Source: a virus | DNA length: 39,400 nt | IMG/VR virus record: IMGVR_UViG_3300046824_000015 | Coordinates: 1 to 39,400 of that record | Direction: 5' to 3' (one strand) | In this document: positions 1 through 39,400 of the stretch, in pieces | Layout of the letters: each line of letters begins with the position of its first letter | How positions within the stretch are numbered: position 1 is the stretch's first letter | Program-made: the position numbers and the translations under genes | The notes under the pieces: model-generated | What the model was told of the DNA's origin: nothing | Seen by the model: the letters and a program-made list of their open reading frames with translations, nothing else | The model's database searches: none

Positions 1-756
1 CCGCCGACGAGTCAACCCGGCCCGGTGCAGGCGCAGCCCGCGCCCACGCAGCCGACGCAGACCGGCGCCTTTCCCGGCACGAAGCCGGGGGGCGGGGCGA
101 CGACCACTGGCACGCTCCCGGGTGGGACGGGCGGGGCGGATCAGGCGGGGAACCAAGCGCTCTGGGATCAGGCGGGCCACGACATCAAGACGTTCATCAG
201 CCTCTATGCCCAGAAGCACAACATTTCGCCCCAGCAGATCCCGAGTGTCACGAATCAATTCGCGGACGCGCTGAAAAGCGTCGGGGTGAATGCGGACTAC
301 GAGGGCACGGACGAATACGGGCGGTCCGCGGGCATCAAGGTCAACGGGATGCCCTACAAGATCATCAACGGCTCTGGGCAGTGGATGTATGACACCTACC
401 AGAACGCCGAAGGGGCGCCGGCGAATTACGGCATGCCGGGGTATGTGCCGGGGCAGGGCGGTGGCGGATCGCTCTGGGCCACGGTGCCGACGGAAGCCGA
501 AGCGCGGGACATGCCGGGGATCCAGTTCGCCCTCGATGAGAACAACCGGCGCATGATGGCCGGCGCGGCGGCCAAGGGCACGTTGTTGAACGGTCGGACC
601 CAGCAAGCCATTGGGGAGAGCAACATTCAAGCGGCGCTGCAGATGGGCTATCTGCCGCTGGCGCAGTTACAAAATGCGGTGAAAGGCCAGAACACGGGGA
701 GCCTCTACAATTTGGCGAACCTCGGACTGTCTGCTACTGGCACGGGGAACGCCTGA
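1..756 (+). CDS. Phage ejection/internal virion protein, C-terminal part (5' partial)
   Basis: The frame is open from base 1, so the gene is cut by the window edge; the first in-frame ATG is at 25. The first ~40 residues are a Pro/Gly/Thr-rich linker. A folded middle follows (SPQQIPSVTNQFADAL, then NGMPYKIINGSGQW). The last ~80 residues (FALDENNRRMMAGAAAKGTLLNG, then NLANLGLSATG) resemble the C-terminal motif of podophage DNA-injection/tail proteins, in which an FxLxEG-like helix precedes AAAxGxLxSG. Its stop overlaps the next start by one base (TGATG), so the two are probably translated together. The N-terminal half of this protein type is found at the other end of the window (38363-38923). 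The role in the virion is inferred from the C-terminal motif and the neighbours. Confidence 0.6.
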   Translation, partial: PPTSQPGPVQAQPAPTQPTQTGAFPGTKPGGGATTTGTLPGGTGGADQAGNQALWDQAGHDIKTFISLYAQKHNISPQQIPSVTNQFADALKSVGVNADYEGTDEYGRSAGIKVNGMPYKIINGSGQWMYDTYQNAEGAPANYGMPGYVPGQGGGGSLWATVPTEAEARDMPGIQFALDENNRRMMAGAAAKGTLLNGRTQQAIGESNIQAALQMGYLPLAQLQNAVKGQNTGSLYNLANLGLSATGTGNA

Positions 757-25523: not shown

Positions 25524-26513
25524 ATGAGCGTCACGGCGCTGGCGCTGATTACTGACGCGTTCATGGACCTGGGCATCGCTGGCCAAGGTGACACGCCATC
25601 GCCCTTTGAGGTGCAATTTGCGCTTCGCATCCTGAATCGGATGGTCAGCACCTGGCAAACCCAGTCGCTGACCGTCACGGCGATCCAGCGCGTGCTCTTT
25701 CCCCTGATTGCGAATAAGCAGACCTACACCATCGGGCCGGGAGCCGATCTGGACATCCCGCGCCCCGTGCGGTTGTCTGGGGCTGGTCTACTGCTCGCCG
25801 GCCTCGGCTCTGCCGTCAGCATCACCTCGATCACCTCCAGCGGCTTCGTGGCGACGGTCACGCAGACGACGCATGGTTATATCGTCGGGGATGAAGTGTT
25901 CATCGACGGGGCGACGCAGACCAGCTACAACGGGGTGCAAACGGTCGAATCGGTGCCCACGTCAGGCACGTGGACCTTTATCCTCGATGACGTAGCGGTG
26001 AGTCCGGCGACGGGCACGAAGACTGCGGCGAAGGTGCTGGCGTCAGGGGTGGAGATTCCCCGGGCGCTCTACACCGATGACGGCTACGAGGCGATCCAGA
26101 TCAAGCGCCTGAGCAATAGCCTCTTTACCGGGGTGTATTACAACGCGACGGCCAGCCCGTTTGGACAGGTGGTGCTGTGGCCGATTCCCGACAACGCGAA
26201 CAACCAGCTCGTGCTCTATGTGCCGCAAGTCTTCGGCTCGTTTGCGAGTTTGAGTGCTACTTACAGTTGGCCCGATACGCCGGGGTATCAAGAGGCGCTG
26301 ATCTACAACCTTGAAAAGCGTATCGCCTTGACCTCATCCTTCGCCGTGCCGCAAGAGGTTGTGCCTGGGATTCGCGTGCTGGCTTCTGAATCACTGGCGG
26401 CGATCAAGCGCCAGAACTACAAGCTGTCCGATATGCCGATGGATCCGGCGCTCACGCGGTCCTACGGTGGCGGCTACAACATCAACACCGGAACCGGTGG
26501 AGGACAACCGTAA
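25524..26513 (+). CDS. P22 gp4-like head-to-tail adaptor with insertion domain (329 aa)
   Basis: The N-terminal helices (ALALITDAFMDLGIAGQGDT, then FALRILNRMVSTWQTQ) and the C-terminal part (YQEALIYNLEKRIALT, then LASESLAAIKRQN) match gp4-type adaptors that bind under the portal. The core has the typical YTIGPGADLDIPRPVRL. Between ~95 and ~175 lies an extra beta domain (TQTTHGYIVGDEVFIDGATQ, then YNGVQTVESVPTSGTWTF), which is known from other phage tail proteins but not part of the usual 150-170 residue gp4. The large size is explained by this insertion. Confidence 0.8.
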   Translation: MSVTALALITDAFMDLGIAGQGDTPSPFEVQFALRILNRMVSTWQTQSLTVTAIQRVLFPLIANKQTYTIGPGADLDIPRPVRLSGAGLLLAGLGSAVSITSITSSGFVATVTQTTHGYIVGDEVFIDGATQTSYNGVQTVESVPTSGTWTFILDDVAVSPATGTKTAAKVLASGVEIPRALYTDDGYEAIQIKRLSNSLFTGVYYNATASPFGQVVLWPIPDNANNQLVLYVPQVFGSFASLSATYSWPDTPGYQEALIYNLEKRIALTSSFAVPQEVVPGIRVLASESLAAIKRQNYKLSDMPMDPALTRSYGGGYNINTGTGGGQP

Positions 26514-26870
26514 ATGGCAGCCACATCCGCGCCGATCTTAGATATGGCGCTTACGTTCAACGGCGATCAATCCACCAGCGGGGCGGTGGCGATGATTCCC
26601 GATTCGGTTCGTGGGCACTACACCGAGTTTACGATCTACATCCTCTTCAGTGCGGCATCGGCGGCGGGCGCGGTGCAGATTGAAACAGCCAGCGACTACA
26701 GCTACACCGGGACGTGGGCGGCGGTGGGGAGTCCGATCGCCTGGGCTGTGGCGACCTCGCAGAAATATGCCTCCGTCACGGGCGCCTTTGCGGCCTTGCG
26801 CCTGAAGATCAGCACCACCGTGACGAGCGGCACCGTGAGCGCGTGGATTGTGGCCTCATCGCCAGGATAA
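26514..26870 (+). CDS. Small beta-rich tail/neck protein (118 aa)
   Basis: ATG follows the adaptor stop directly. Beta-sandwich pattern with ILDMALTFNGDQSTSGAVAM and VQIETASDYSYTGTWAAVG. Position after the adaptor suits a small completion or decoration protein. Not recognised further. Confidence 0.5.
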   Translation: MAATSAPILDMALTFNGDQSTSGAVAMIPDSVRGHYTEFTIYILFSAASAAGAVQIETASDYSYTGTWAAVGSPIAWAVATSQKYASVTGAFAALRLKISTTVTSGTVSAWIVASSPG

Positions 26871-26879
26871 GGGAGACGC

Positions 26880-27155
26880 ATGGACATCACTGATCTACTC
26901 AAGGCCGTGGCGAGCGCGGTCGAAGACACGAAAGCCAAGGAAGCCTACACGCTGGAGGCCAGCCGGCATCTGGTCGAAGTGACCGCAGCCGCCAAAGCCG
27001 AGTATGACGCGGCGGTGGGCGCAGCCCAGTCGGCGTATGACGAGGCGAACGCGGCCTATACCGATGCCCGCGTGGCGGGTCAGCGGTTGAAGGATCAGGC
27101 CAACGAAGCCCTTGGCGGGTTGTTCTCGGCGGATCCGCGTGTGCGGATGGGCTAG
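26880..27155 (+). CDS. Ala-rich coiled-coil protein (91 aa)
   Basis: AGGGAG precedes ATG 26880. Nearly pure helix with Ala-rich heptads (VEVTAAAKAEYDAAVGAA, then AYDEANAAYTDARVAGQRL). Such proteins often bridge or chaperone tail subunits. It overlaps the next GTG by one base. Confidence 0.5.
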   Translation: MDITDLLKAVASAVEDTKAKEAYTLEASRHLVEVTAAAKAEYDAAVGAAQSAYDEANAAYTDARVAGQRLKDQANEALGGLFSADPRVRMG

Positions 27156-27532
27156 TGAGCTTCCGGCCGAACAGCGGCGGCGGACACTACAACGATTCCA
27201 CGGTCATTTATGACAATGGAAACAAGCTCACGATCAAGAAGATTCCCGTGGCGGTCAGCGCCAGTGGGACGCTCGTGGCGGCGGTGGTGGGGTGCCAGAT
27301 TCGGGTCATTGCGTTCGCGCTGACCTCGAGCGGCACGGTCAATGTGAAGTTTCAGAGCCATACGACGGGCGATCTGACGGGCTTGTTTTACGAGATTGCG
27401 AACACCGGCTTCGTGCTCTCCCCGAATACGTGGGGCTGGTTTGAGACCGTGGTCGGTGAGGCGTTGGATATTAGCCTCTCGGCGGGGATTCCGGTGGGTG
27501 GCGTGCTGACGTATGTGGAGGTGATTCCCTAA
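27155..27532 (+). CDS. Small beta-rich virion protein (125 aa)
   Basis: GTG start overlaps the TAG above. Strands alternate (VAVSASGTLVAAVVGCQIRV, then SGTVNVKFQSHTTGDLTGLF, then WGWFETVVGEALDISLSAG). The pattern matches a small jelly-roll-like family seen as phage tail/decoration proteins. It overlaps the next ATG by one base. Confidence 0.5.
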   Translation: MSFRPNSGGGHYNDSTVIYDNGNKLTIKKIPVAVSASGTLVAAVVGCQIRVIAFALTSSGTVNVKFQSHTTGDLTGLFYEIANTGFVLSPNTWGWFETVVGEALDISLSAGIPVGGVLTYVEVIP

Positions 27533-27864
27533 TGGCGATTACTGATGCCCTGCTCCAGCAAGCCTTGAGTGGGTCTCCGACGTTCAAGGCGCGGGTCAAG
27601 TCCGCGCTGGCGACGGTGGCGTGGCAGGTGCTGAATAATGGCGGCTCTTCGGCTAAGAGCATTGCCTATGCCCAAGCCGCCCTGCTGAATCTCGATGCCT
27701 ACGCGGGCCAAATCTCAGGCTGGCTCGTCACCCGCACGAACGTGACCGGCTCCAATCTCACGCTCTCGGCGGCGACGGGTGCGGCGGTGATCAATACGGA
27801 CGCCACGGACGCCGCGCTCCAGTCGCAGCTTTCGACGGATTGGGTCGCACTTGCGGGCGGCTAG
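27532..27864 (+). CDS. Small virion-region protein (110 aa)
   Basis: The first half is helical (DALLQQALSGSPTFKARVKS), the second beta-rich (VTRTNVTGSNLTLSAATGAA). It sits between two beta-rich virion proteins, but no family is recognised. Confidence 0.45.
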   Translation: MAITDALLQQALSGSPTFKARVKSALATVAWQVLNNGGSSAKSIAYAQAALLNLDAYAGQISGWLVTRTNVTGSNLTLSAATGAAVINTDATDAALQSQLSTDWVALAGG

Positions 27865-27866
27865 AC

Positions 27867-28976
27867 ATGCTGCATCTCCTGCTGTTCATGGCCTTCACCT
27901 ACTACAAGACCGTCACGATTGACCACACGCAGTGTGGGATCGTGGATTCCACGGATTTCCCTGTGGCGATCTGGGTCACGGATGCGGATCTGAAGACCGT
28001 GGCTAATGGCGGGAAGGTCCAGAACAGCAGCGGGTATGATATTCGGCCCTATAGTGACTCGGGACTGACGATTGCGTTGACCTATGAACTGGTGGCCTCG
28101 ACCTACGTGGCCACGACGGGCGCGGTCGAGATGCACGTCAAGATTCCCACGGTCTCGGCGAGCAGCGACACGCTCTTTTACCTGGCCTTCGGGGACAGCG
28201 GGATCTCGACTGATGGGAGTTCGACGGCGACGTGGAGCAACGGCTATACGCTCGTCGCGCATTTTGCTAACGGGTCGTCATTATCCCTTGCGGATTCGAG
28301 TGGCAACGGCTATACCGGCACCAATAACAGTGGCACGGCGACGGCTGGTCTCGTGGACGGGGCACTCGCGGTCACGGGGGGGACGAATGTGACGTTTCCC
28401 AGCACGCCCGTGGATACGATTCTGAACAATGGGGACTTCACGCTGAGTCTCTGGATCTATCCGACGACGTTACCCTCCACCGTCGGCGTCTTTGATACAT
28501 CGACCCGAGAACTCTCCATTTTTATCATCAGCAATAAAATCGGCTATGGGGGCATTGGCGGGAATCAGGGCTCATTGCCAGGGACCGTGACCTACAGCAC
28601 GGGAGCCTGGAACCTGCTGCAATGGACGCAGACCGCCAGCGGTGTCGTGACCACGATCTACTCGAATGCGTCCTTCGATTTTACGACGGCCTTTCCGGCG
28701 GCGGGCACGCGGAGTGAAACGTGGCACCTCGGGGATAATCCCTCTGGCGGTGGGACCGGATCGTGGGACGGCTCGTATGATGAACTGCGTCTTGCGACTG
28801 GCGCACGCTCCACAAGCTGGCTCGCCTGCGAATACAACAACGAGAAAACGAGTAGCACGTTCCTGACCTATGGGGCGCTGACGCCTGTGGGTGGGAGTAA
28901 CGATAACTTCGATTGGCTGCAACGACGCGCCGTGCCGTTGCCGAATTGGCGACCGACGTGGATCACCGTCCCTTAA
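27867..28976 (+). CDS. DUF2341 plus LamG-like adhesin (369 aa)
   Basis: ATG 27867 or 27888 may start; the domain begins at the second (AFTYYKTVTIDHTQC). Residues ~15-115 match DUF2341 (FPVAIWVTDADLKTVANGGK, then GYDIRPYSDSGL, then DTLFYLAFGDSG). Residues ~130-330 form a LamG/concanavalin-like jelly roll (HFANGSSLSLADSSGNGYTG, then FTLSLWIYPTTLP, then GSYDELRLATGARSTSW). Such pairs bind glycans or proteins. It may be a receptor-binding component. The C-terminal ~30 residues are a polar tail (WLQRRAVPLPNWRPTW). Confidence 0.7.
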   Translation: MLHLLLFMAFTYYKTVTIDHTQCGIVDSTDFPVAIWVTDADLKTVANGGKVQNSSGYDIRPYSDSGLTIALTYELVASTYVATTGAVEMHVKIPTVSASSDTLFYLAFGDSGISTDGSSTATWSNGYTLVAHFANGSSLSLADSSGNGYTGTNNSGTATAGLVDGALAVTGGTNVTFPSTPVDTILNNGDFTLSLWIYPTTLPSTVGVFDTSTRELSIFIISNKIGYGGIGGNQGSLPGTVTYSTGAWNLLQWTQTASGVVTTIYSNASFDFTTAFPAAGTRSETWHLGDNPSGGGTGSWDGSYDELRLATGARSTSWLACEYNNEKTSSTFLTYGALTPVGGSNDNFDWLQRRAVPLPNWRPTWITVP

Positions 28977-28988
28977 GGAGACAGACTG

Positions 28989-29456
28989 ATGAAGTATTCC
29001 TCATTCGGCAGCGCGGGCGCGGCGACGGCCACAGCGGCGTCCTCGGGCCTGAACGACCTCTATCAGCCGGCCGCCGCGCCTATGGGGTGTCCGACGATCT
29101 ACGCGTTCAACATCGGCCCCGCCGCGAACTCCGCGGATGAGACCTACGCCATCCAGTTGAAACGCTACAGCGGCACAGGGCCGACGTTCACGCAGGTGAC
29201 GCCCTCCCCGAACGATACCCCGGGTGTCGTGCCGGTGGCGAAGACGATTGCCGGCGTGGCGCAGACGGTCGCGCACGGCACGGCTGGCGTGATTCTCTTT
29301 CAGACGGGCTATCACATGCGGGCGGGCCTCGCGTGGACGGCTATCCCGGGTGGCGAATGGTTGGTCAACCTGTCGGTGAGCAACGCGATCCTCCTGGAAT
29401 ACACCTTCGCGCAGGGCTCGTCCGTGCAGAAGAGCACCGTCTTATTCTGGGAGTAA
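28989..29456 (+). CDS. Small beta-rich virion protein (155 aa)
   Basis: AAGGAG lies upstream of ATG 28989. The first 35 residues are Ala/Gly/Ser-rich and flexible. The rest has strand patterns (ETYAIQLKRYSGTGPTFTQV, then ILFQTGYHMRAGLAWTAIPG). It is likely exposed on the particle. No close family is known to me. Confidence 0.5.
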   Translation: MKYSSFGSAGAATATAASSGLNDLYQPAAAPMGCPTIYAFNIGPAANSADETYAIQLKRYSGTGPTFTQVTPSPNDTPGVVPVAKTIAGVAQTVAHGTAGVILFQTGYHMRAGLAWTAIPGGEWLVNLSVSNAILLEYTFAQGSSVQKSTVLFWE

Positions 29457-29459
29457 GCC

Positions 29460-29678
29460 GTGGGGAAAGAGAACCACGACCGGCTGGATAAGATCCAGCA
29501 CACGCACGAATACGGCGGCATGCTCTGCGGCTCGATGGGCTACATCGTGGCGCGTCTGCCTGACGGCTCGATTGATCGGGCGCCTCGGGTCGAAGACGGG
29601 GTGGTGGTGGAGATGGAGCCGAAATACTGCGCCCACGACTGCCCGACGCTGATTGCAGCCATCAAGGCATCAGCATGA
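29460..29678 (+). CDS. Hypothetical small protein (72 aa)
   Basis: It starts with GTG at 29460 and overlaps the next gene by ATGA. Polar with a late Cys pair (YCAHDC). It opens the block of enzyme and zinc genes. Not recognised. Confidence 0.4.
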   Translation: MGKENHDRLDKIQHTHEYGGMLCGSMGYIVARLPDGSIDRAPRVEDGVVVEMEPKYCAHDCPTLIAAIKASA

Positions 29679-30058
29679 TCCACGGGCGCAAACCGGCCGG
29701 CTACGTGCTCACGTCGAATGATCATCTGTCCCGGCTCGAGCTGGAGTCGCGGCAATGTGTGCATTGTCAATTCCAGTGGATCTATGACCCATTCAAGGAA
29801 GCACGAGCCCGCAACCTGCGCGGCTTCTGCCTCCGGTGCCACGGCTTTACCTGTGAGCGGCCCGAATGCCACATGGAGCAGCGCGTGATGCTGAGTGAAT
29901 ATCCCGACGAGCCGCGGCCGTGCATCTCGTTTGAAGAGCACTACCGGCGCCGACTCGATCGGATCAACGGCTCGTCGCAGTTTGAAGTGACGCCCTCAGG
30001 GGTCATTGTGCCGAAGGGCACGTATTCGGACATTCCCGGCTTGGAAGGCTTGCGATGA
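29675..30058 (+). CDS. Zinc-binding protein before methyltransferase (127 aa)
   Basis: CVHCQFQW, CLRCHG and CERPEC supply three Cys pairs for a probable zinc site (~30-66). The C-terminal half is polar (RRRLDRINGSSQFEVTPSGV). It overlaps the methyltransferase gene by ATGA. It may help recognise the methyltransferase substrate; this is inference from coupling. Confidence 0.5.
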   Translation: MIHGRKPAGYVLTSNDHLSRLELESRQCVHCQFQWIYDPFKEARARNLRGFCLRCHGFTCERPECHMEQRVMLSEYPDEPRPCISFEEHYRRRLDRINGSSQFEVTPSGVIVPKGTYSDIPGLEGLR

Positions 30059-30519
30059 TTGCGACCGGGCTGCGATTGGATCTGGGCTGTGGGACCAAAG
30101 TCAAGGCCGGGTTTCAAGGCGTCGATGTGGAGCCGCTGTCGGGTGTGCTCTGTGTGGACTTACTGCGGTTCCCATGGCCGTGGCCCGACGCGTCCGTCGA
30201 AGAGGTCGCCTGTTCGCATTTCTTTGAGCATGTCCCGGCGAAGCTGCGCCCGGTGTTCATGGATGAACTCTGGCGCATCCTGTCACCGGAAGGCGTGGCC
30301 GTGATTACCGTGCCGAAGTGGGATTCCCCCGGCGCGGTGCAGGACTTTACGCACGAATGGCCGCCCGTGGCCCCGCAGTCGTTTCTCTACTTCAACCGGG
30401 ACGCCAGACGGATGATGGGACTGGAGCACTATCCCTGCACCTGCCACTTCGACATGAAGGTGCGGGAGTTTGTGGAATACATCCCCCAGACCGAAGTGCG
30501 GCTGGTGAAGCTCCCGTGA
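30055..30519 (+). CDS. Class I SAM-dependent methyltransferase (154 aa)
   Basis: Motif I is LDLGCGTK (~8-15), followed by GVDVEP with the acidic residue for the ribose. A later FFEHVPAKLRP and ELWRILSPEGVAVITVP match the Methyltransf_11-type core. It is short and lacks a substrate domain. DPPY-type motifs are absent, so DNA is not the likely target; small molecules, glycans or proteins are more likely. It overlaps the glycosyltransferase gene (GTGA). Confidence 0.75.
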   Translation: MIATGLRLDLGCGTKVKAGFQGVDVEPLSGVLCVDLLRFPWPWPDASVEEVACSHFFEHVPAKLRPVFMDELWRILSPEGVAVITVPKWDSPGAVQDFTHEWPPVAPQSFLYFNRDARRMMGLEHYPCTCHFDMKVREFVEYIPQTEVRLVKLP

Positions 30520-31622
30520 AGCTGTTCGTCTTCAGCGATGGCGTGCGGCACGGCTGCTATGTCTACCGCGAAGAGGTGCCCTTAGAAGCCTTGGAGCGCC
30601 GTGGGCATACCGTCGAAGGCGGGCTGGTCACGAAGCCCTTGGATGATGGCAGCCTCGCGGACGTGGATCTGTTCATCATGCCGCGGTTTCTCTTCGGGGA
30701 TTACCCGCTGGTCGTGGATGAGATTCAGCGCAACGGGCGGGCGCTCGTCTATGAGATTGACGATGCCGCGGATCTGTTTGAGCGGTATCACACCAGCTAC
30801 TTTCAGGTGCGGAACTCGCTGCCGTCGTATTACTACATGATCCAGCAAGCGGATCTGGTGACAACGACGACGGAGCATCTGGCGCAGCATCTGCGGTCGC
30901 TTGGGGCTCGGCGGGTGGAAGTGCTCCCGAACTGCCCGCCGCCCGCCGTGCCGTGGGTGGACCCGCCACATAACGCGAAGGTCCGCATTGGCTATACCGG
31001 CTGGACTGCCCACATGCTGGATGCGGCCTTCTGGCTGGATTGCATGGCGGTGCTGCGAGAGATGCGGCAGGACTTTACCCCGGTGCTCTTCGGGATTGCG
31101 AATACCTCGGACACCGACGGGGAGATGTTCTTTGACCGCTGCAAGCAGGCGATTGAGCACAACCCGGTGCCCAATGAGGATTTCAAGGGTGCCCTGAAGG
31201 TCTTCCGCAAGGCCTGGCTGCCGCTCAAGGATGTGCTGGAGTGGCGGCACATGGTGCCGGTGGATGACTACTGGACCACGCTGGCAGACCTCAAGTTAGA
31301 CATTGGCTGTGCGCCCTTGCTCGATACGCCCTTCAATCGCTGCAAGTCCGCGGTGAAGTTCTACGACTACGCGGTCTCTGGGGCGGTCACGATAGCCTCT
31401 GACGTCTTGCCCTACAGCGCAGAGCCGATGATCCATGTGCCGCACAGCCTGAGTGCATGGGTCAAGATGCTGTCGATTCTGATTGATCATCGCCAGTATC
31501 GGCTCCGGTTGCTGCAGGAACAGCGGGCGTGGATCAAGCAGCACCGCAACCCTGACGACTGGGCGGTCACGCGGGAAGCGATCTATCAGTCGCTGCTGCC
31601 GTCGGTGGAAGCGGTGGCCTGA
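30516..31622 (+). CDS. GT-B fold glycosyltransferase (368 aa)
   Basis: GTG 30516 overlaps the methyltransferase stop. The N-terminal half has an open alpha/beta pattern (KLFVFSDGVRHGCYVYREEV, then DLFIMPRF, then LVYEIDDA). The C-terminal half has the donor-binding features of GT4-like enzymes: VRIGYTGWTAH, then DIGCAPLLDTPFNRCKSAVK, then FYDYAVSGAVTIASD. The Cys/Lys-x-Phe stretch with Glu replaced by an Asp/Tyr pattern is a mild deviation from the usual E-x7-E. It probably transfers a sugar to a glycan or virion protein. It overlaps the repeat-protein gene. Confidence 0.75.
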   Translation: MKLFVFSDGVRHGCYVYREEVPLEALERRGHTVEGGLVTKPLDDGSLADVDLFIMPRFLFGDYPLVVDEIQRNGRALVYEIDDAADLFERYHTSYFQVRNSLPSYYYMIQQADLVTTTTEHLAQHLRSLGARRVEVLPNCPPPAVPWVDPPHNAKVRIGYTGWTAHMLDAAFWLDCMAVLREMRQDFTPVLFGIANTSDTDGEMFFDRCKQAIEHNPVPNEDFKGALKVFRKAWLPLKDVLEWRHMVPVDDYWTTLADLKLDIGCAPLLDTPFNRCKSAVKFYDYAVSGAVTIASDVLPYSAEPMIHVPHSLSAWVKMLSILIDHRQYRLRLLQEQRAWIKQHRNPDDWAVTREAIYQSLLPSVEAVA

Positions 31623-32413
31623 TGCCGCAATATCAGATCCCCGGCGCTCGCGGCCCGATTCAGGGGCCGATTACGGATCGGAATTGGCAACCACCGCCGA
31701 AGGCTGGCCCGCCGCTGGTGAACTATGCCGCGCAGCAGATGAATCGCTACCTGAACACGGCGAAGCAATACGTGCATCAGGGCGCGACCGTGCAGCAAAT
31801 GGTGCCGATTCCGCTGACGGCCCAGCCGAATCAAGCGGCCTATCAGAAGCAGCAGCAACTCCGGTATCTGTCGCCCGCGCTGCAGTATGTGCATCAGGGG
31901 GCCACAAACCAGCAGACGCACCCCTTGCCGCCGCGCACCCAGCCGCTGCAGGCGTATTGGCAGCGCCAGAACTGGCTCCGCTATCTGAATGCCGCCAAGC
32001 CCATCTGGCCGGGCGCCATTACCGATACCGATTGGCAACCGCCCCCGAAGACGGCGCCGAATCAGGCGTATTGGCAGAAGCAGAATGCCCTGCGATATCT
32101 CAATCAGGCGCTTGAGCCGCTCGACGGCCCCGGCACGGATACCCGCTGGCAGATGCCGCCGCGGGCACAGCCGCTGCAAGCCTACTGGCAGAAGCAGAAC
32201 ATCCTTCGGTATCAGCACCTCGCGCAGTTACCGATTCCTGGGGCGCTGGTCGATACGTCCTGGCAGCCGAATCCGAAGGCCATGCCGGCGATGTCGTGGT
32301 ATCTGCAGCTCCAGTCGTGGCAATACCGCAATCATGCCTTCGTGGATCAGGGCGGCGGGGGCACGCCCGTGACCGGCTTCCTGCACCTCCTGCCGCTGAT
32401 GGGAGTCGGCTAG
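31622..32413 (+). CDS. Six-unit Trp/Gln/Pro repeat protein (263 aa)
   Basis: The protein consists of six units of 38-39 residues. Each has a helix of the type AYWQKQNxLRYLNxA followed by PGAxTDTxWQPPPK. The conserved Arg-Tyr pairs are near residues 42, 81, 120, 158 and 196, with a degenerate sixth near 235. It ends in a Gly-rich tail. It is coupled to the glycosyltransferase by one-base overlap and may be its substrate or partner. No known family matches. Confidence 0.6.
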   Translation: MPQYQIPGARGPIQGPITDRNWQPPPKAGPPLVNYAAQQMNRYLNTAKQYVHQGATVQQMVPIPLTAQPNQAAYQKQQQLRYLSPALQYVHQGATNQQTHPLPPRTQPLQAYWQRQNWLRYLNAAKPIWPGAITDTDWQPPPKTAPNQAYWQKQNALRYLNQALEPLDGPGTDTRWQMPPRAQPLQAYWQKQNILRYQHLAQLPIPGALVDTSWQPNPKAMPAMSWYLQLQSWQYRNHAFVDQGGGGTPVTGFLHLLPLMGVG

Positions 32414-33543
32414 TGCCGCGAGTGGCTCTCGAGTCGTTTGTCGGCCCATCGAATACGCTGCGTTCGATTCAGGCGGATTGCGATGAGACCTACAACCTCT
32501 TCCTCGAGTCCGTAGCGCCGGGGAGCGGGAAGGCCCCGGTCTACCTCCAAGGCACGCCGGGGATCCATCCGGTGTTCGTGGCGCCAGATCAGCCGGTGCG
32601 GGGCTTGTTCAACATGAACGGGCGGGCCTTCTGTGTCGCGGGCGCAACGTTTTTTGAGTTCTTCAGCAACTACACCATCGGCCCGACGTATACCGTGACC
32701 AACGACTTGCAGCCGGTGTCGTTTGCCTCGAACGGCACGGCGGGCAATCAACTGATGATTGTGTCAGGCGGCGACGGGTATATCTACAACACCGATACGC
32801 TGGTCTTCACGCAGATCACCGATCCCGACTTTCCCGTGCCGTGCAAGATGTGCGAGTTTCTGAATGGCTACTTCCTTGCGCTGAAGGGCGGCGGGTCGCG
32901 GTCGTTCTCCTGGTCGAATCTGGAAGACGGGCTGATGTGGGACACGCTGGACGTGGCGGAACGATCTGCGACCGCTGATAATCTGGGGGCGATGGTGCGC
33001 TCGCACGAGGAGATTTGGTTCTTTGGGGGCGAAACCACGCAAGTCTACTGGAACAGCGGCCAAGCCTCAGAGATTTTCGCGCCCATCAGTGGGGTCGTCA
33101 TTGAGCACGGCGTGCTCGGCCCCTTCACGGCGCAGCGATGCGATAACACGATCATCTGGCTCGGCTCGAGCGTGGATGGCTTCGGCGTCATCTGGCGGGC
33201 CGATGGCTACACCCCGAAACGCATCTCGACGTTTGGCGTGGAGCAGGCCATCCAGCAGGAAGACACCCCGACCGATGCACGGGCGTTCACGTTCCAGATG
33301 AACGGGCACATCTTCTATGCGCTGCTGCTGCCGCGGTCTCGGTGGACGTGGCTGTATGACGTGACCATGGACCGCTGGACGAAGTGGGCGACGTGGGACA
33401 CCACGGCCGCTGACTGGATCCCGCATCATGCGTGCTGTCATATCTTCGAGTTTGGCACGCATCTCGTCGGGGACCGCTACTCTGGGGCGATCTACGAAAT
33501 GAGTATGGCCTTTTACGACGAGCAGCTGGTGGCGGCGATATGA
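32413..33543 (+). CDS. gp10-like tail factor, beta-propeller part, C-terminally truncated (376 aa)
   Basis: GTG 32413 overlaps the upstream stop. The sequence follows P22 gp10-type packaged-DNA stabilisation proteins through the propeller: SIQADCDETYNLFLESV, then YLQGTPGI, then EIWFFGGETTQVYWNSG, then HGVLGPFTAQRCDNTIIWLG, and ends in GDRYSGAIYEMS. A full protein continues for about 100 residues with a beta-sandwich, which is missing here. That part appears at 36650-36961. The two pieces may assemble in the particle. Confidence 0.75.
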   Translation: MPRVALESFVGPSNTLRSIQADCDETYNLFLESVAPGSGKAPVYLQGTPGIHPVFVAPDQPVRGLFNMNGRAFCVAGATFFEFFSNYTIGPTYTVTNDLQPVSFASNGTAGNQLMIVSGGDGYIYNTDTLVFTQITDPDFPVPCKMCEFLNGYFLALKGGGSRSFSWSNLEDGLMWDTLDVAERSATADNLGAMVRSHEEIWFFGGETTQVYWNSGQASEIFAPISGVVIEHGVLGPFTAQRCDNTIIWLGSSVDGFGVIWRADGYTPKRISTFGVEQAIQQEDTPTDARAFTFQMNGHIFYALLLPRSRWTWLYDVTMDRWTKWATWDTTAADWIPHHACCHIFEFGTHLVGDRYSGAIYEMSMAFYDEQLVAAI

Positions 33544-33638
33544 GTGAGCCGGTGTTTTCGATGTCGTTTGTGCGGTATGCGGCGTTCTGGATTGTGATGT
33601 TATTCGTGGCGAAGTATTGGCTGCTGAAAGGTCGTTAG
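33540..33638 (+). CDS. Membrane microprotein (32 aa)
   Basis: It is coupled by ATGA to the gp10-like gene. One hydrophobic segment (YAAFWIVMLFVAKYWLL) occupies most of it. It may be the remnant or by-product of the insertion that split gp10. Too short for a firm call. Confidence 0.4.
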   Translation: MSEPVFSMSFVRYAAFWIVMLFVAKYWLLKGR

Positions 33639-33661
33639 ATGGCGAGTCCGATTGTCACGAA
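33634..33661 (+). repeat. 28-base exact direct repeat, copy 1
   Basis: These bases recur at 34198-34225. Each copy begins GTTAG and runs through the start codon into the first seven codons of the following gene. The genes at 33639 and 34203 therefore share an identical N-terminus. It marks a recent tandem duplication. Confidence 0.85.
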
Positions 33662-34202
33662 TACCTCCACGGAACTGAATGGGGCCGCTCTCGTCTATGG
33701 CTTTAAGACGGACCTGACCAATGCCCAGATTCTCGCACTGCCGACGACAAAGGTCCAAGTCATTGCGGCGACAGGGGCGAACACACGGGCGCGGGTGCTC
33801 GGGGCGACGTTGCAGATCGATTCGTCGGCTGGGGCGTATACCAACGTCAATACCACCTATAACCTCGTGATTCTGACGCCTGGAGCCTCTGGTGATTGGT
33901 TGGCGATGGGGCCGGTCAATGATGCCACACTCGCCACTCCTCTGACGCAAGCGACGCAGTTCTTTGCCAATGCGGGCCGGCACTTCTTCGATTGCGTGGT
34001 GCCCGGTGTGGTCGCGTTAGACGGGGGCGCCTCGTCGGGCGCGACGGCGTGGACGCAGGGGCAGACATATGCGCTCGTGGACGTGGTGAATACCATCGTC
34101 TACCTGTCGATGGATAACAACGGATCCGGCGTGCTGACGGGCGGCAACGCCTCGAATAGTGGGCGCGTCTGGGTCTATTACACGGTGGAGGCGACTAGTT
34201 AG
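33639..34202 (+). CDS. Tandem virion protein, paralogue A (187 aa)
   Basis: MASPIVTNTS start identical to the next gene. Pattern: ALVYGFKTDLTNAQILALPT, then RARVLGATLQIDSSAGAYTN, and end motif STxNNGSGV in the form SMDNNGSGVLTGGNA. It looks like a beta-sandwich surface protein. It belongs to three tandem paralogues in the segment that separates the gp10 parts. Confidence 0.6.
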   Translation: MASPIVTNTSTELNGAALVYGFKTDLTNAQILALPTTKVQVIAATGANTRARVLGATLQIDSSAGAYTNVNTTYNLVILTPGASGDWLAMGPVNDATLATPLTQATQFFANAGRHFFDCVVPGVVALDGGASSGATAWTQGQTYALVDVVNTIVYLSMDNNGSGVLTGGNASNSGRVWVYYTVEATS

Positions 34203-34778
34203 ATGGCGAGTCCGATTGTCACGAACACCTCGGCGCAGTTGAATGGCCGCAGTCTCATTGTGGGCGTGACGGCGACCCTGACCGACGCCCAGATTAAGGC
34301 CAGTCCAACGACGCCGGTCTCCATTGTGTCCGCGCCTGGGGCTGGGATGCGCCTTCGGGTGCTCGGCGCGAGTGGGGTGCTGGACTGCACGGGCGGCGCC
34401 TATACCAACATCAACACGACCTATTGTGCCGCGATGGTGCTGTGTTACACCGATGCGGCGTCTGGGGTATGGCAAGCGATGGCGCCCTATCTCAACGATG
34501 CGAGTCTCGCCACACCGTTTACTAGGGCCACGATTGGCCTTGGTGGGACCACGAAAACCTACGTGAACTACATCGTGCCGAATATGAATGGGCTGAATGC
34601 CGGCGCGTCATCTGGCGCAACGGAATGGGTCGCGCAGCCGGATCTGCCCTTGGTCGCGCTCTGTGAGAATCAGGCGCTCTTTCTCAGCACGGATAACAAC
34701 GGCAGCGGCGTCTTCACGGGTGGAAATGTGGCGAATAGCTATCACGTGACTGTCTACATCTGCTATGAGGCCGTCTAA
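34203..34778 (+). CDS. Tandem virion protein, paralogue B (191 aa)
   Basis: It shares with paralogue A the same start, LTDAQIKASPTTPVSIV against LTNAQILALPTTKVQVI, GGAYTNINTTY, ASLATPF, NAGASSGAT and NNGSGVFTGGN. Extra Cys residues are present (LDCTGG, YCAAM, LCY). Probably an exposed decoration or fibre-base protein with diverged surface loops. Confidence 0.6.
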   Translation: MASPIVTNTSAQLNGRSLIVGVTATLTDAQIKASPTTPVSIVSAPGAGMRLRVLGASGVLDCTGGAYTNINTTYCAAMVLCYTDAASGVWQAMAPYLNDASLATPFTRATIGLGGTTKTYVNYIVPNMNGLNAGASSGATEWVAQPDLPLVALCENQALFLSTDNNGSGVFTGGNVANSYHVTVYICYEAV

Positions 34779-35233
34779 TGGCCACCCTGTCGAATATCTT
34801 CACCGCTGATAACGGCGTCCAATCCGCGACGGCTGCCGCTTTTCGTATCGATAAGGCCATCCTGACGCCCACGGAAGTCAAGGCGCTGAACTCCACGCCG
34901 ATTACGCTGGTAGCGTCGAAGGGATCCGGCACGGTCATCAACGTGCATCGCATCAGCTTTGCGAGCACCTTCCTGACGACGGCCTATGCGGGGGCGAACA
35001 ATCTGGAGTTTCGCTACACCGATGCCTCGGGGGCGAAGGTGACGGCGGATATTGCGGCGGCCACGTTGAACTTTACGACCGGGACCAAGTATGCGCTGGT
35101 GGCGGGCGTGACCACGGAACTGACGCAGGTGCCGGCGAGTCCCATTGTGGTGCGGGTGCCGACGGCGAATCCGACGGCTGGATTGAGCACCGTGACCTTC
35201 TACATCGAGTATTCCGTGCTGACGGCGCCCTAA
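34778..35233 (+). CDS. Tandem virion protein, distant paralogue C (151 aa)
   Basis: One-base overlaps on both sides. ILTPTEVKALNSTPITLVAS aligns with the LTxAQIxxxPTTPVxIV segment of A and B, and strands follow in the same order. The C-terminus differs. It is likely the same fold after more divergence. Confidence 0.5.
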   Translation: MATLSNIFTADNGVQSATAAAFRIDKAILTPTEVKALNSTPITLVASKGSGTVINVHRISFASTFLTTAYAGANNLEFRYTDASGAKVTADIAAATLNFTTGTKYALVAGVTTELTQVPASPIVVRVPTANPTAGLSTVTFYIEYSVLTAP

Positions 35234-35610
35234 TGCCAGCCCCCACGAATACGACGCCTGCGACCGCGACGGATTTAGGGGCGTTTCCCTTTGCGACGTT
35301 TACCGAAGATGTGTCTGGCGGGACGGGTCCGCATTATGACGTATGGTTCAAGGTGACGGCGGCCACAACGGAATATCTCGGCTTGAATGCCCACGCGCCG
35401 ATTGCTGGCGTCTATTTCCCTGGCACGACGATCTGGACTGGGCCGACGAGTGCGCTGGTGCCCTATCCGCCTGATGTGCCGATTAGTGGATTCGATCAAG
35501 CCGTGCAATTTCCAGTGACGTCTGGGGAAACCTACTATTTTCGGATTCGCCAAGAAAACGTGGGTGTGCCTGATAATCTGCTCTCGATGACTGGCATCGC
35601 ATTAGCCTGA
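35233..35610 (+). CDS. PPC-like beta-sandwich protein (125 aa)
   Basis: TTPATATDLGAFPFATFTED, then YDVWFKVTAATTEYLG, then AVQFPVTSGETYYFRI match the bacterial pre-peptidase C-terminal (PPC-like) jelly roll. In exported proteins these bind ligands or cofactors. Here it is a stand-alone gene before the second propeller protein, with one-base overlaps. Confidence 0.55.
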   Translation: MPAPTNTTPATATDLGAFPFATFTEDVSGGTGPHYDVWFKVTAATTEYLGLNAHAPIAGVYFPGTTIWTGPTSALVPYPPDVPISGFDQAVQFPVTSGETYYFRIRQENVGVPDNLLSMTGIALA

Positions 35611-36653
35611 TGGCATTCTTTCCGATTCTCACCACCGACGGCGATACCATCGTCACGGCAGACGGGTTCGCTGTGGTCATTGAGGGCACGCCAGCGCCGC
35701 CTCCGGTGACTGGCGTGACAGTGGTGATTCCCGATGCCGATGAAGACTTTTGGGGAGCAGAACTCACCGTTGCCGCTGGTGGCGTGTCGAACTTCAACAG
35801 CGCGATTCCTAATTCCGAATGGGGCGCGGCGTTGCCACTCGGTGGGAATATCGCGCTGAATCCGAAACCGACGCCGACGAGTATCCAGATTTATGATGCC
35901 GACTGGGCACTGGTCGCCACGATTCCCGCGATGTTAGGCAGCACGTCGATTTATCAGCGGATTGCGGCGAATCCGACCACCTCCCTCTTTTATTATTCCA
36001 ATGGGGGCAGTGGCGCTGGTGCCGTCACGCTGCATCAATCCACAGATGCAGGCGTTGTCTCTGGCACGGTCTGGACGCTCCCGGCCAATTCTCGCACCCC
36101 ACTGAGCATGGCGGTCTCGCGGGATGACGGAACCGCCTATTATTCGTCCTTAATTTCTGGGCAAGCGGTTTATGCCTATGATTTAGTAGGCATGGCTCCC
36201 AAAGCGAATCTCGTGGCTGCTGGGGCGCATTTTGCGACGGACATCATCACGCTCTCAGATGACAGCGTGGTGATTGCCTATCAGGGCACAGCGAATCAGG
36301 TCATCCGCGTGGATGCGTCCGGAACGCTCTTGAATACTTACAGTTTCCCGTCAAAGGCGGCGCATCGACTAGCGATACATCCAGATGACGATCCTTCGAC
36401 GTTTTGGGTCTGGACGTATGTGGGGTCCAACGTCTCGTCTGTGTTCTACCATGTCAATGTATCCGATGGAGCAACTATCGAGAGTATTCCTGCGCCTATT
36501 TATCTTGGCGGGGTGCTCAATGCTTTTACAGATAGCACGCCTCAGGTATTTGGGACATCTGATACCTGCCCGTTTTTAGTGCTTGGGGCAGAGGCACCTC
36601 CATTTACATCCACCACCTTTCCCATTCGTCGGCTGCGACGGTGGATGCCATGA
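35610..36653 (+). CDS. Second beta-propeller virion protein ending in PIRRLRR (347 aa)
   Basis: The N-terminal ~45 residues form a small strand module (ILTTDGDTIVTADGFAVVIE). Then come repeated blade patterns typical of NHL/SMP-like propellers (IQIYDADWALVATIPAML, RIAANPTTSLFYYSNG, VIRVDASGTLLNTYSFPS, LAIHPDDDPSTFWVW). It ends TFPIRRLRRWMP. P-x-x-R-R-x-R-R is the junction that leads into the C-terminal sandwich in gp10-type proteins. The next gene supplies exactly that sandwich, overlapping by ATGA. Confidence 0.6.
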   Translation: MAFFPILTTDGDTIVTADGFAVVIEGTPAPPPVTGVTVVIPDADEDFWGAELTVAAGGVSNFNSAIPNSEWGAALPLGGNIALNPKPTPTSIQIYDADWALVATIPAMLGSTSIYQRIAANPTTSLFYYSNGGSGAGAVTLHQSTDAGVVSGTVWTLPANSRTPLSMAVSRDDGTAYYSSLISGQAVYAYDLVGMAPKANLVAAGAHFATDIITLSDDSVVIAYQGTANQVIRVDASGTLLNTYSFPSKAAHRLAIHPDDDPSTFWVWTYVGSNVSSVFYHVNVSDGATIESIPAPIYLGGVLNAFTDSTPQVFGTSDTCPFLVLGAEAPPFTSTTFPIRRLRRWMP

Positions 36654-36961
36654 GCGCCTTGTTTGACCTCAATCAATGGGTCACGATTCATCGCGTGGAG
36701 TTGATTTGCCAAGCCGGGAATGGACTTTCGACGGGGCAGGGATCGGACCCGCAGGTGATGTTCCGCATCAGCCGCGATGGCGGGCAGACCTACGGGCAAG
36801 AACTCACGATGGCGACGGGGAAGATCGGGGAGTATCAGCGAAGATGCTTCCTTAATATCTTAGGCCGCTCAAGGAATACGGTCTTTGAGTTGAGCAGTTC
36901 TGATCCCGTATTTAATGCGTGGCTGATGTTTACCGTCGATGCAACGCCAGGGACCAGTTAG
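36650..36961 (+). CDS. gp10-type C-terminal beta-sandwich (103 aa)
   Basis: The sequence WVTIHRVELICQAGNGLSTG, then GSDPQVMFRISRDGGQTYGQ, then GKIGEYQRRCFLNILGRSRN, then VFELSSSDPV is the C-terminal domain of P22 gp10-like tail factors, where DGxxYGxE...GKxGEYxxRVxWxxLGxxR is typical. It is separate from its propeller, which lies 3.1 kb upstream. The ATG sits in the stop of the 35610 gene, so it may be produced by re-initiation and join that protein or the gp10 propeller. Confidence 0.7.
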   Translation: MSALFDLNQWVTIHRVELICQAGNGLSTGQGSDPQVMFRISRDGGQTYGQELTMATGKIGEYQRRCFLNILGRSRNTVFELSSSDPVFNAWLMFTVDATPGTS

Positions 36962-37243
36962 ATGGGTTCCCAGATTCCGAAGACGACGCAGAAGGTCGTG
37001 GATCCGAACGGCCAAATGGACCGCAACTGGCGGCTCTACCTGACGCAGTTGCAAGCCTCGGGGGGCACGGCGATCCCGTTTCGGAGCCTGCCGGCGAATC
37101 CGCAGGTGGGTGCCTTCGCGGTGATCAATGATTCAGCCACGACGACTTGGGGCGCGACCGTGACCAGCACATCACCAGCTCCTGGGGCCACTGTGCTGGC
37201 GTGGTTCAATTCGGCGGGTAATTGGTCAGTAATTGGAATCTAG
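36962..37243 (+). CDS. Small tail protein (93 aa)
   Basis: ATG directly follows the previous stop. The start (SQIPKTTQKVVDPNGQMDRN, then WRLYLTQLQ) matches short phage tail proteins of the pattern PxxxxxVDxxGxxxxxWxxYLxxL. The rest is a compact beta region. Not recognised further. Confidence 0.5.
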   Translation: MGSQIPKTTQKVVDPNGQMDRNWRLYLTQLQASGGTAIPFRSLPANPQVGAFAVINDSATTTWGATVTSTSPAPGATVLAWFNSAGNWSVIGI

Positions 37244-38923: not shown

Positions 38924-39400
38924 TGGCCTTCTTCAATCCGTTCGATGTGATTACCGCAGGGGCGGGGGCCTTACCCGGCACGGGCGTCAGTGACGCCGCG
39001 ATCAGGGCGGGGAAGGTCAGTGCCCCAGCCGGGAGCCTTGCGTCCCTTGGGGGTGGGCAGGCGGGTCCGAATGGGCCGGGCGGGGCGATGTCATGGATGC
39101 AGCCGAGCCCGCAGCCGGTGCCGGGGATGCCGCCTAAGCAGGACGCTGGGACTGGCATGGACCCGAGCACGGGTCAGCCCATGACGCAGCAGGACTATGA
39201 CAACACGCTCAAGCGGTATAACGAACTGCTGCCCGAGAGCCAGAAGTATTTCAGAGATTTCGGCCCCCCGGATCCCAACGATCCGACGCGGAATGAGATG
39301 AATGTCTTAGGCCAACGCTTAGAGGCATGGCAAGCAATGCCGGGGAATGCGCCGGTCTATCAGACGATGGGTGGTGGCGAAGGCCCGGGCGGCTTCACGG
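38923..39400 (+). CDS. Virion protein, 3' partial (159 aa visible)
   Basis: ATG overlaps the TAA above by one base. Composition is Gly/Pro-rich (SLGGGQAGPNGPGGAMS, then PSPQPVPGMPPKQDAG) with a helical segment (LKRYNELLPESQKYFRDFGP). It runs off the window. It is probably the middle part of the ejection-protein set and could lead, with some missing bases, into the gene at 1-756, but the frames do not match. Confidence 0.45.
   Translation, partial: MAFFNPFDVITAGAGALPGTGVSDAAIRAGKVSAPAGSLASLGGGQAGPNGPGGAMSWMQPSPQPVPGMPPKQDAGTGMDPSTGQPMTQQDYDNTLKRYNELLPESQKYFRDFGPPDPNDPTRNEMNVLGQRLEAWQAMPGNAPVYQTMGGGEGPGGFT

Follow-up and report, generated by a model that had tools for sequence, protein, structure and literature searches.

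The stretch of viral DNA analysed here, referred to as the window, covers 39,400 nucleotides (positions 1–39,400 of the IMG/VR record IMGVR_UViG_3300046824_000015) and encodes the tail protein gp10 in pieces. gp10, which seals the head once packaging is complete, ranks with the best-conserved proteins of these phages. In the window, its propeller and its C-terminal sandwich reside in separate genes, and the linker between them is found at the end of another protein, the carrier. The genes of the divided system are listed below; L-numbers denote loci or contigs of relatives found by scans of viral contigs.

32413–33543, + strand: gp10-N, a gp10/Hc3-type propeller protein of 376 amino acids with a GTG start and without the C-terminal sandwich
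35233–35610, + strand: separate gene for a passenger domain, which aligns collinearly with residues 1–116 of the L109 carrier-sandwich open reading frame (ORF) at 42% identity
35610–36653, + strand: carrier of 347 amino acids, a predicted WD40/NHL-like propeller with a C-terminal PIRRLRR linker
36621–36641, + strand: PIRRLRR codons; the carrier retains this gp10 linker
36650–36961, + strand: gp10-C, 103 amino acids, the gp10 C-terminal sandwich (putative platform) as its own gene, ATGA-overlapped with the carrier gene
36962–37243, + strand: gene in a needle or spike-adaptor position, placed like the P22 needle gp26 or the PBR31 tail-spike adaptor

Division of gp10 between genes

gp10-N and gp10-C match adjacent stretches of one protein family, phrog_578 ('head closure Hc3', the P22 gp10 kind; Pfam PF11134, Phage_stabilise). 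In a profile search of the window products, gp10-N matched positions 8–363 of the 486 profile positions (E value of 4.9e-73) and gp10-C matched positions 380–472 (E value of 1.7e-14). Since these stretches of one profile are matched by two genes, the cut falls between the propeller and the sandwich, and the ~16 unmatched positions between them represent the linker. The proposal of an earlier, sequence-only reading that gp10 is divided here, with a propeller at 32413 lacking its sandwich and the sandwich encoded at 36650, is borne out by these matches. The C-terminus of gp10-N reads ...GDRYSGAIYEMSMAFYDEQLVAAI. The carrier ends in ...TTFPIRRLRRWMP, after which the sandwich starts from the ATG at 36650. 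gp10-N matches the PDB chains 9vyg_M and 7eeq_1 by phmmer and was matched in 42 annotated phage records, and gp10-C matches 9vyg_M with an E value of 0.005. None of the window pieces has a confident match in Pfam.

Whole homologues contain both parts in one chain. The 475-residue gp10 of Rhodoferax phage P26218 reads without a break through the propeller, linker and sandwich (...LDYFTDAGAPIARIRACPHLN...), beside which the propeller end in the window reads ...MAFYDEQLVAAI. The propeller and the sandwich also share one chain in DSL-LC05 and in the solved tail structures 7eeq (Pam1; 7eeq_1) and 9vyg (Pan3; 9vyg_M). A comparison with P22 gp10 (472 amino acids), advised by the sequence-only reading, gave an alignment over the full length, in which residues 16–471 align with the group profile at an E value of 2.9e-11 (alignment A1, containing whole gp10 rows); the short gp10-C alignment (A3) gave no significant match to P22 gp10 by hhalign. 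The same reading had called for a relative with a whole gp10 and no intervening block. L129 is such a relative, and its gp10 of 483 amino acids (...SIDKFQDAGGGPIRRVRRTPHLS...) provides the empty-site comparison. Its whole gp10 gene is followed directly by a 36962-like gene with a shared N-terminal motif and then by an acetyltransferase gene, in the same order as in the window and in Xanthomonas phage PBR31. The N-terminal motif of the 36962–37243 product is of the RxWxxYLxxL type and recurs in L109, L115 and L129. Whole gp10 is taken as the ancestral state because it is the form found in P22, in the solved structures and in every annotated relative that was examined. One defining feature of the family, the single chain, is absent from the window and ~45 contigs, and the window locus was therefore classed within the gp10/Hc3 family as a split variant.

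Spread of the split and exchange of carriers

In the first scan, all 12 relatives encoded the propeller and the sandwich in separate genes. Wider scans collected 150 loci with whole gp10 (first classification) and 60 split loci near that of the window, repeats included, of which 45 were left after repeats were removed. The two genes are 0.6–3.3 kb apart in these ~45 non-redundant viral contigs, and both parts occur together in the split contigs of sufficient length. No report of a split gp10 was found in the literature searched, the coverage of which was partial.

A propeller tree with 53 split and 32 whole rows requires one change of the split/whole label, compared with a mean of 25 for shuffled labels. 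On this tree, the split is old and common to an entire clade, and the 3-kb insertion in a single phage that had been envisaged earlier is replaced by a clade-wide arrangement. Two assignments were discarded. L129 appeared as the sister of the split group in a first tree with weak support, and a denser tree places it among the whole forms. A 'split' label given to L185 and L187 (P22) in one table arose from a profile that detected no sandwich there.

In most split members, the linker and the sandwich end one long ORF, in which they are preceded by a passenger of ~240–750 residues. The window and its nearest relatives encode the sandwich as a further separate gene. The linker is detached from the sandwich in four contigs (the window, L001, L002 and L012), and an ATGA overlap joins the carrier and gp10-C genes. 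The 35233, 35610 and 36650 genes are collinear with a single 645-residue ORF of L109 (42%, 34% and 47% identity, respectively), which makes joint action of the separate genes very likely; the 35233 product is also collinear with residues 210–323 of the L020 carrier-sandwich ORF. Across 12 near relatives, the PIRRLRR protein sequence does not vary, although most of its codons show synonymous differences, a pattern of selection on the linker. Its conservation despite detachment from the sandwich suggests that the carrier tail retains a role, for which docking to the sandwich is the simplest candidate. Transfer to a second, unrelated protein, as suspected from the sequence, thus applies to the linker in the window, where PIRRLRR ends the 35610 product, and also to the sandwich in most relatives. 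The accompanying idea that this second protein is a propeller agrees with the WD40/NHL-like prediction for the window and fails in the relatives, where the carrier is often no propeller.

The carrier has been exchanged recently. L001 and L012 are 93% identical to the window in the propeller and 98–99% identical in the sandwich, and the main flanks of the window DNA are 84–91% identical to both. The DNA similarity stops at 35235 and returns at 36608–36612, where the linker begins. Between the equivalents of these positions, L001 encodes a 33% identical propeller, and L012 encodes an unrelated L003-type module after a similar N-terminal tag. By this comparison, the carrier is replaced between the window and L012 despite a near-identical sandwich and propeller, which agrees at the sequence level with the earlier suggestion of exchangeable parts. 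The carriers of the window (35610–35690), L001, L002 and L012 have a common N-terminal tag, MAxFPxLTxDGxTIxTxxxFA, on unrelated cores. A similar motif, ITEAGDNLITEAG, is found in a gp10 insert of L069.

Exchange is also evident across the clade. Detectably similar pairs make up 19% of 1035 passenger pairs and 99.4% of 1176 sandwich pairs. Single-linkage clustering of the passengers chained multi-domain proteins (8 groups), and pair counts were used instead. The 35610 product is predicted to form a generic WD40/NHL-like propeller unlike that of gp10 (fold match Z of about 16). The passenger of L252 matches LamG (E value of 1.6e-7, above the Pfam cut-off), and those of L258 and L020 give matches below the cut-off. 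The predicted structure of the L005 passenger is a C1q/TNF-like jelly roll (Z of 7–8) that matches a tail-fibre chain of phage 7-7-1 at a Z of 8.4, and a BFVD fold search with the L005 model returned jelly-roll matches only, of many kinds. The L228 passenger reads as beta-helix-like, with a sub-threshold match to DUF5123. Among annotated phages, tblastn found no relative of the 35610 carrier or the L005 module and only one weak match to the 35233 product. We infer that the passengers are exchangeable adhesin-like modules that may bind receptors.

Tandem second sandwiches are present in L208, L226, L228, L229 and L230, and the two sandwich genes are 59–74% identical within a phage. The propeller protein is extended at its new C-terminus by 325 residues in L210 and by 526 residues in L218. 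In L210, L213, L217 and L223, gp10-N ends in long Ser-rich repeats of the SASASPS type, which follow a folded-looking domain in L210. A second entry place for passengers is seen at L255:4220-6049, where a whole gp10 contains an insert of ~120–160 residues in a sandwich loop.

Proposed platform and rival explanations

In the T7 and SU10 nozzles, a platform composed of N- and C-terminal parts binds the adaptor ring (PMC6702177, PMC9509320). The SU10 platform is a β-sandwich of both parts and binds two adaptor proteins (PMC9509320), and the fibre dock of T7 sits between the propeller end and the platform (PMC6702177, PMC9509320). This literature points to an adaptor-binding platform instead of the tail-needle complex that had been proposed from the sequence. 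A low-confidence model of the L005 linker and sandwich superimposes on 7eeq_1 with a Z of 8.7 and a root-mean-square deviation of 3.8 over 109 residues (chain range 31..434), and the predicted structure matches 9vyg_M with a Z of 8.0. The matched ranges in the two chains start at residues 31–33 and end at residues 434–439, consistent with a two-part sandwich in gp10. Given such a sandwich and the T7/SU10 topology, the cut in the split clade would fall at the fibre-dock position.

We propose that gp10 was cut in one ancestor of a large P22-gp10-type short-tailed group, at the boundary of the propeller with the C-terminal β-sandwich. The propeller would have been kept as its own gene, and a second protein would have received the sandwich and its linker at its C-terminus. 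Judged from T7 gp12 and SU10 gp17, the sandwich may serve as the platform that fixes the nozzle to the adaptor ring, with N-terminal strands of the propeller protein completing it. On the basis of this analogy, the most likely outcome would be a gp10-like ring formed by non-covalent reassembly of gp10-N and gp10-C, with each sandwich carrying a passenger outward at the place of the T7 fibre dock. In the window lineage, the sandwich would have become a third, translationally coupled gene, to which the carrier most likely docks through its PIRRLRR tail. A probability of roughly 0.65 is assigned to such a trans-assembled platform anchoring exchangeable appendages, of which the assembly, the virion location and the receptor binding of the passengers are the conjectural parts. 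The odds appear evenly balanced for a broader generalization, in which the hub platform is a general socket, supplied in trans and duplicable, and unrelated lectin-like, propeller and beta-helix-like modules plug into the ring as a display device that may be hetero-oligomeric where two sandwich types exist.

Several points weigh against this proposal. The branch that divides split from whole forms has only moderate support (SH-aLRT, the Shimodaira–Hasegawa-like approximate likelihood ratio test, of 83 in a quick tree whose root was not inferred). The split members are all uncultured contigs known from sequence, and most passengers have no match in a Pfam search. Both structure models are of low confidence (mean predicted local distance difference test scores of 58 and 62) and therefore support domain identity only. 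Between the nozzles of T7 and SU10, sequence similarity is undetectable, and the extension of the platform analogy to gp10 is therefore based on fold and topology.

Alternatively, the sandwich may have left the nozzle for good to serve as an end piece (a cap or an oligomerisation domain) of separate appendages, with gp10-N working platform-free. The duplication of the sandwich on several proteins and its ability to stand alone as a gene would suit an independent domain. However, gp10-N residues 9–55, in which the platform strands are expected, retain normal conservation (0.413 in split and 0.418 in whole forms), and the gp10-N and gp10-C distances within the split clade are strongly correlated (Mantel r of 0.93; 0 of 2000 permutations as high). 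Together with the conserved linker and the co-occurrence of both parts in sufficiently long split contigs, these results make a departed sandwich unlikely. A single sandwich could instead be common to gp10-N and the 35610 carrier, with the two propellers competing for it or binding jointly, since in the window it is detached from both and the linker is kept on the carrier. The covalent attachment of the sandwich to the carrier in most relatives, the frequent absence of a propeller from that carrier and the lack of gp10 likeness in the 35610 propeller leave this sharing quite improbable.

A −1 frameshift at the ATGA overlap might still make one chain of the carrier and the sandwich in the window, given the −1 offset between their frames and the existence of fused homologues. 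The junction, however, has no visible slippery heptamer, and the sandwich ATG is preceded by GGTGG at five bases in the window and GGAGG at eight bases in L002, which fits coupled reinitiation. Frameshifting, which would in any case leave gp10-N unjoined, is thus highly improbable. Gene decay or a chance insertion, with the gp10 pieces as remnants and their function taken over by another protein, would accord with an in-frame stop in the otherwise intact gp10-N of L001 (8595–8597; an assembly error or a nonsense mutation), but it has very little to recommend it when both parts stay open in ~45 contigs of a deep clade, 99% of sandwich pairs are recognisably similar and linker variation is synonymous only. 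An assembly or sequencing error, conceivable for a single metagenomic contig and named by the sequence-only reading as a possible source of the breaks, is refuted by the same arrangement in many independent contigs, including the 12 split relatives of the first scan and the recurrence of the ATGA break in L001, L002 and L012.

A naturally divided gp10 with its presumed adaptor-binding part as an anchor suggests that short-tailed phages could swap or add binding modules with the channel unchanged. The ~45 natural fusions, splits and duplications constitute a ready set for studying nozzle-ring assembly, and the split explains why gp10 pieces are easily missed or misannotated in genomes of uncultured phages.

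Neighbouring genes and comparison with known systems

The remaining features around the divided gp10 are as follows.

25524–26513, + strand: gp4-type adaptor candidate (Ad3; phrog_637, E value of 7e-4), the expected platform partner
33540–33638, + strand: small gene for a 32-residue membrane-like product, overlapping the gp10-N stop (ATGA) and near-identical in L001 and L012
33639–34202, + strand: small beta-rich protein, pair member 1, 51% identical to the 34203 product
34203–34778, + strand: small beta-rich protein, pair member 2
34778–35233, + strand: small beta-rich protein, conserved in L001, L002 and L012 at 70–91%

L001 and L012 contain a single copy in place of the duplicated 33639/34203 pair. 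The adaptor candidate and gp10-N are 5.9 kb apart in the window and adjacent in whole-gp10 phages. The block at 26514–32412 contains many small genes and a protein (27882–28976) that reads like DUF2341/LamG; L001 and L012 have a replacement here as well, bounded by breaks at 27537 and 28968. The product encoded just before gp10-N (31622–32413) contains ~40-residue tandem repeats of the type WQPPPKTAPNQAYWQKQNxLRYLN and has a 65% identical homologue in L001 and L012. L008 runs from window position 39400 on to position 1; the record is therefore circularly permuted or circular, and the window starts inside a gene run.

The locus most closely resembles P22 gp10 and phrog_578: the propeller and the C-terminal sandwich are homologous and follow each other in the same order, a gp4-type adaptor (a candidate in the window) lies upstream, and a needle- or adaptor-type gene lies directly downstream. 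The known members are one chain of ~475 residues, whereas two or three genes are used here and the sandwich carries, or is served by, variable modules. The T7 gp12 and SU10 gp17 nozzles likewise combine a propeller with an adaptor-ring-binding platform of N- and C-terminal parts, but they are single chains in which the fibre dock is fixed and formed by a small domain or loop, and their likeness to gp10 is one of architecture. In siphophages, the evolved Dit with carbohydrate-binding modules is a conserved tail-hub protein that displays binding modules; there, the module lies inside one Dit chain, an unrelated protein, and the hub is undivided (PMC9128512). The L-shaped fibres of DT57C, LtfA and LtfB, are similar in that a one-chain tail component of a reference phage is two proteins in relatives; they differ in forming a fibre, not a hub, and one anchor is not reused on unrelated partners (PMC4728585).

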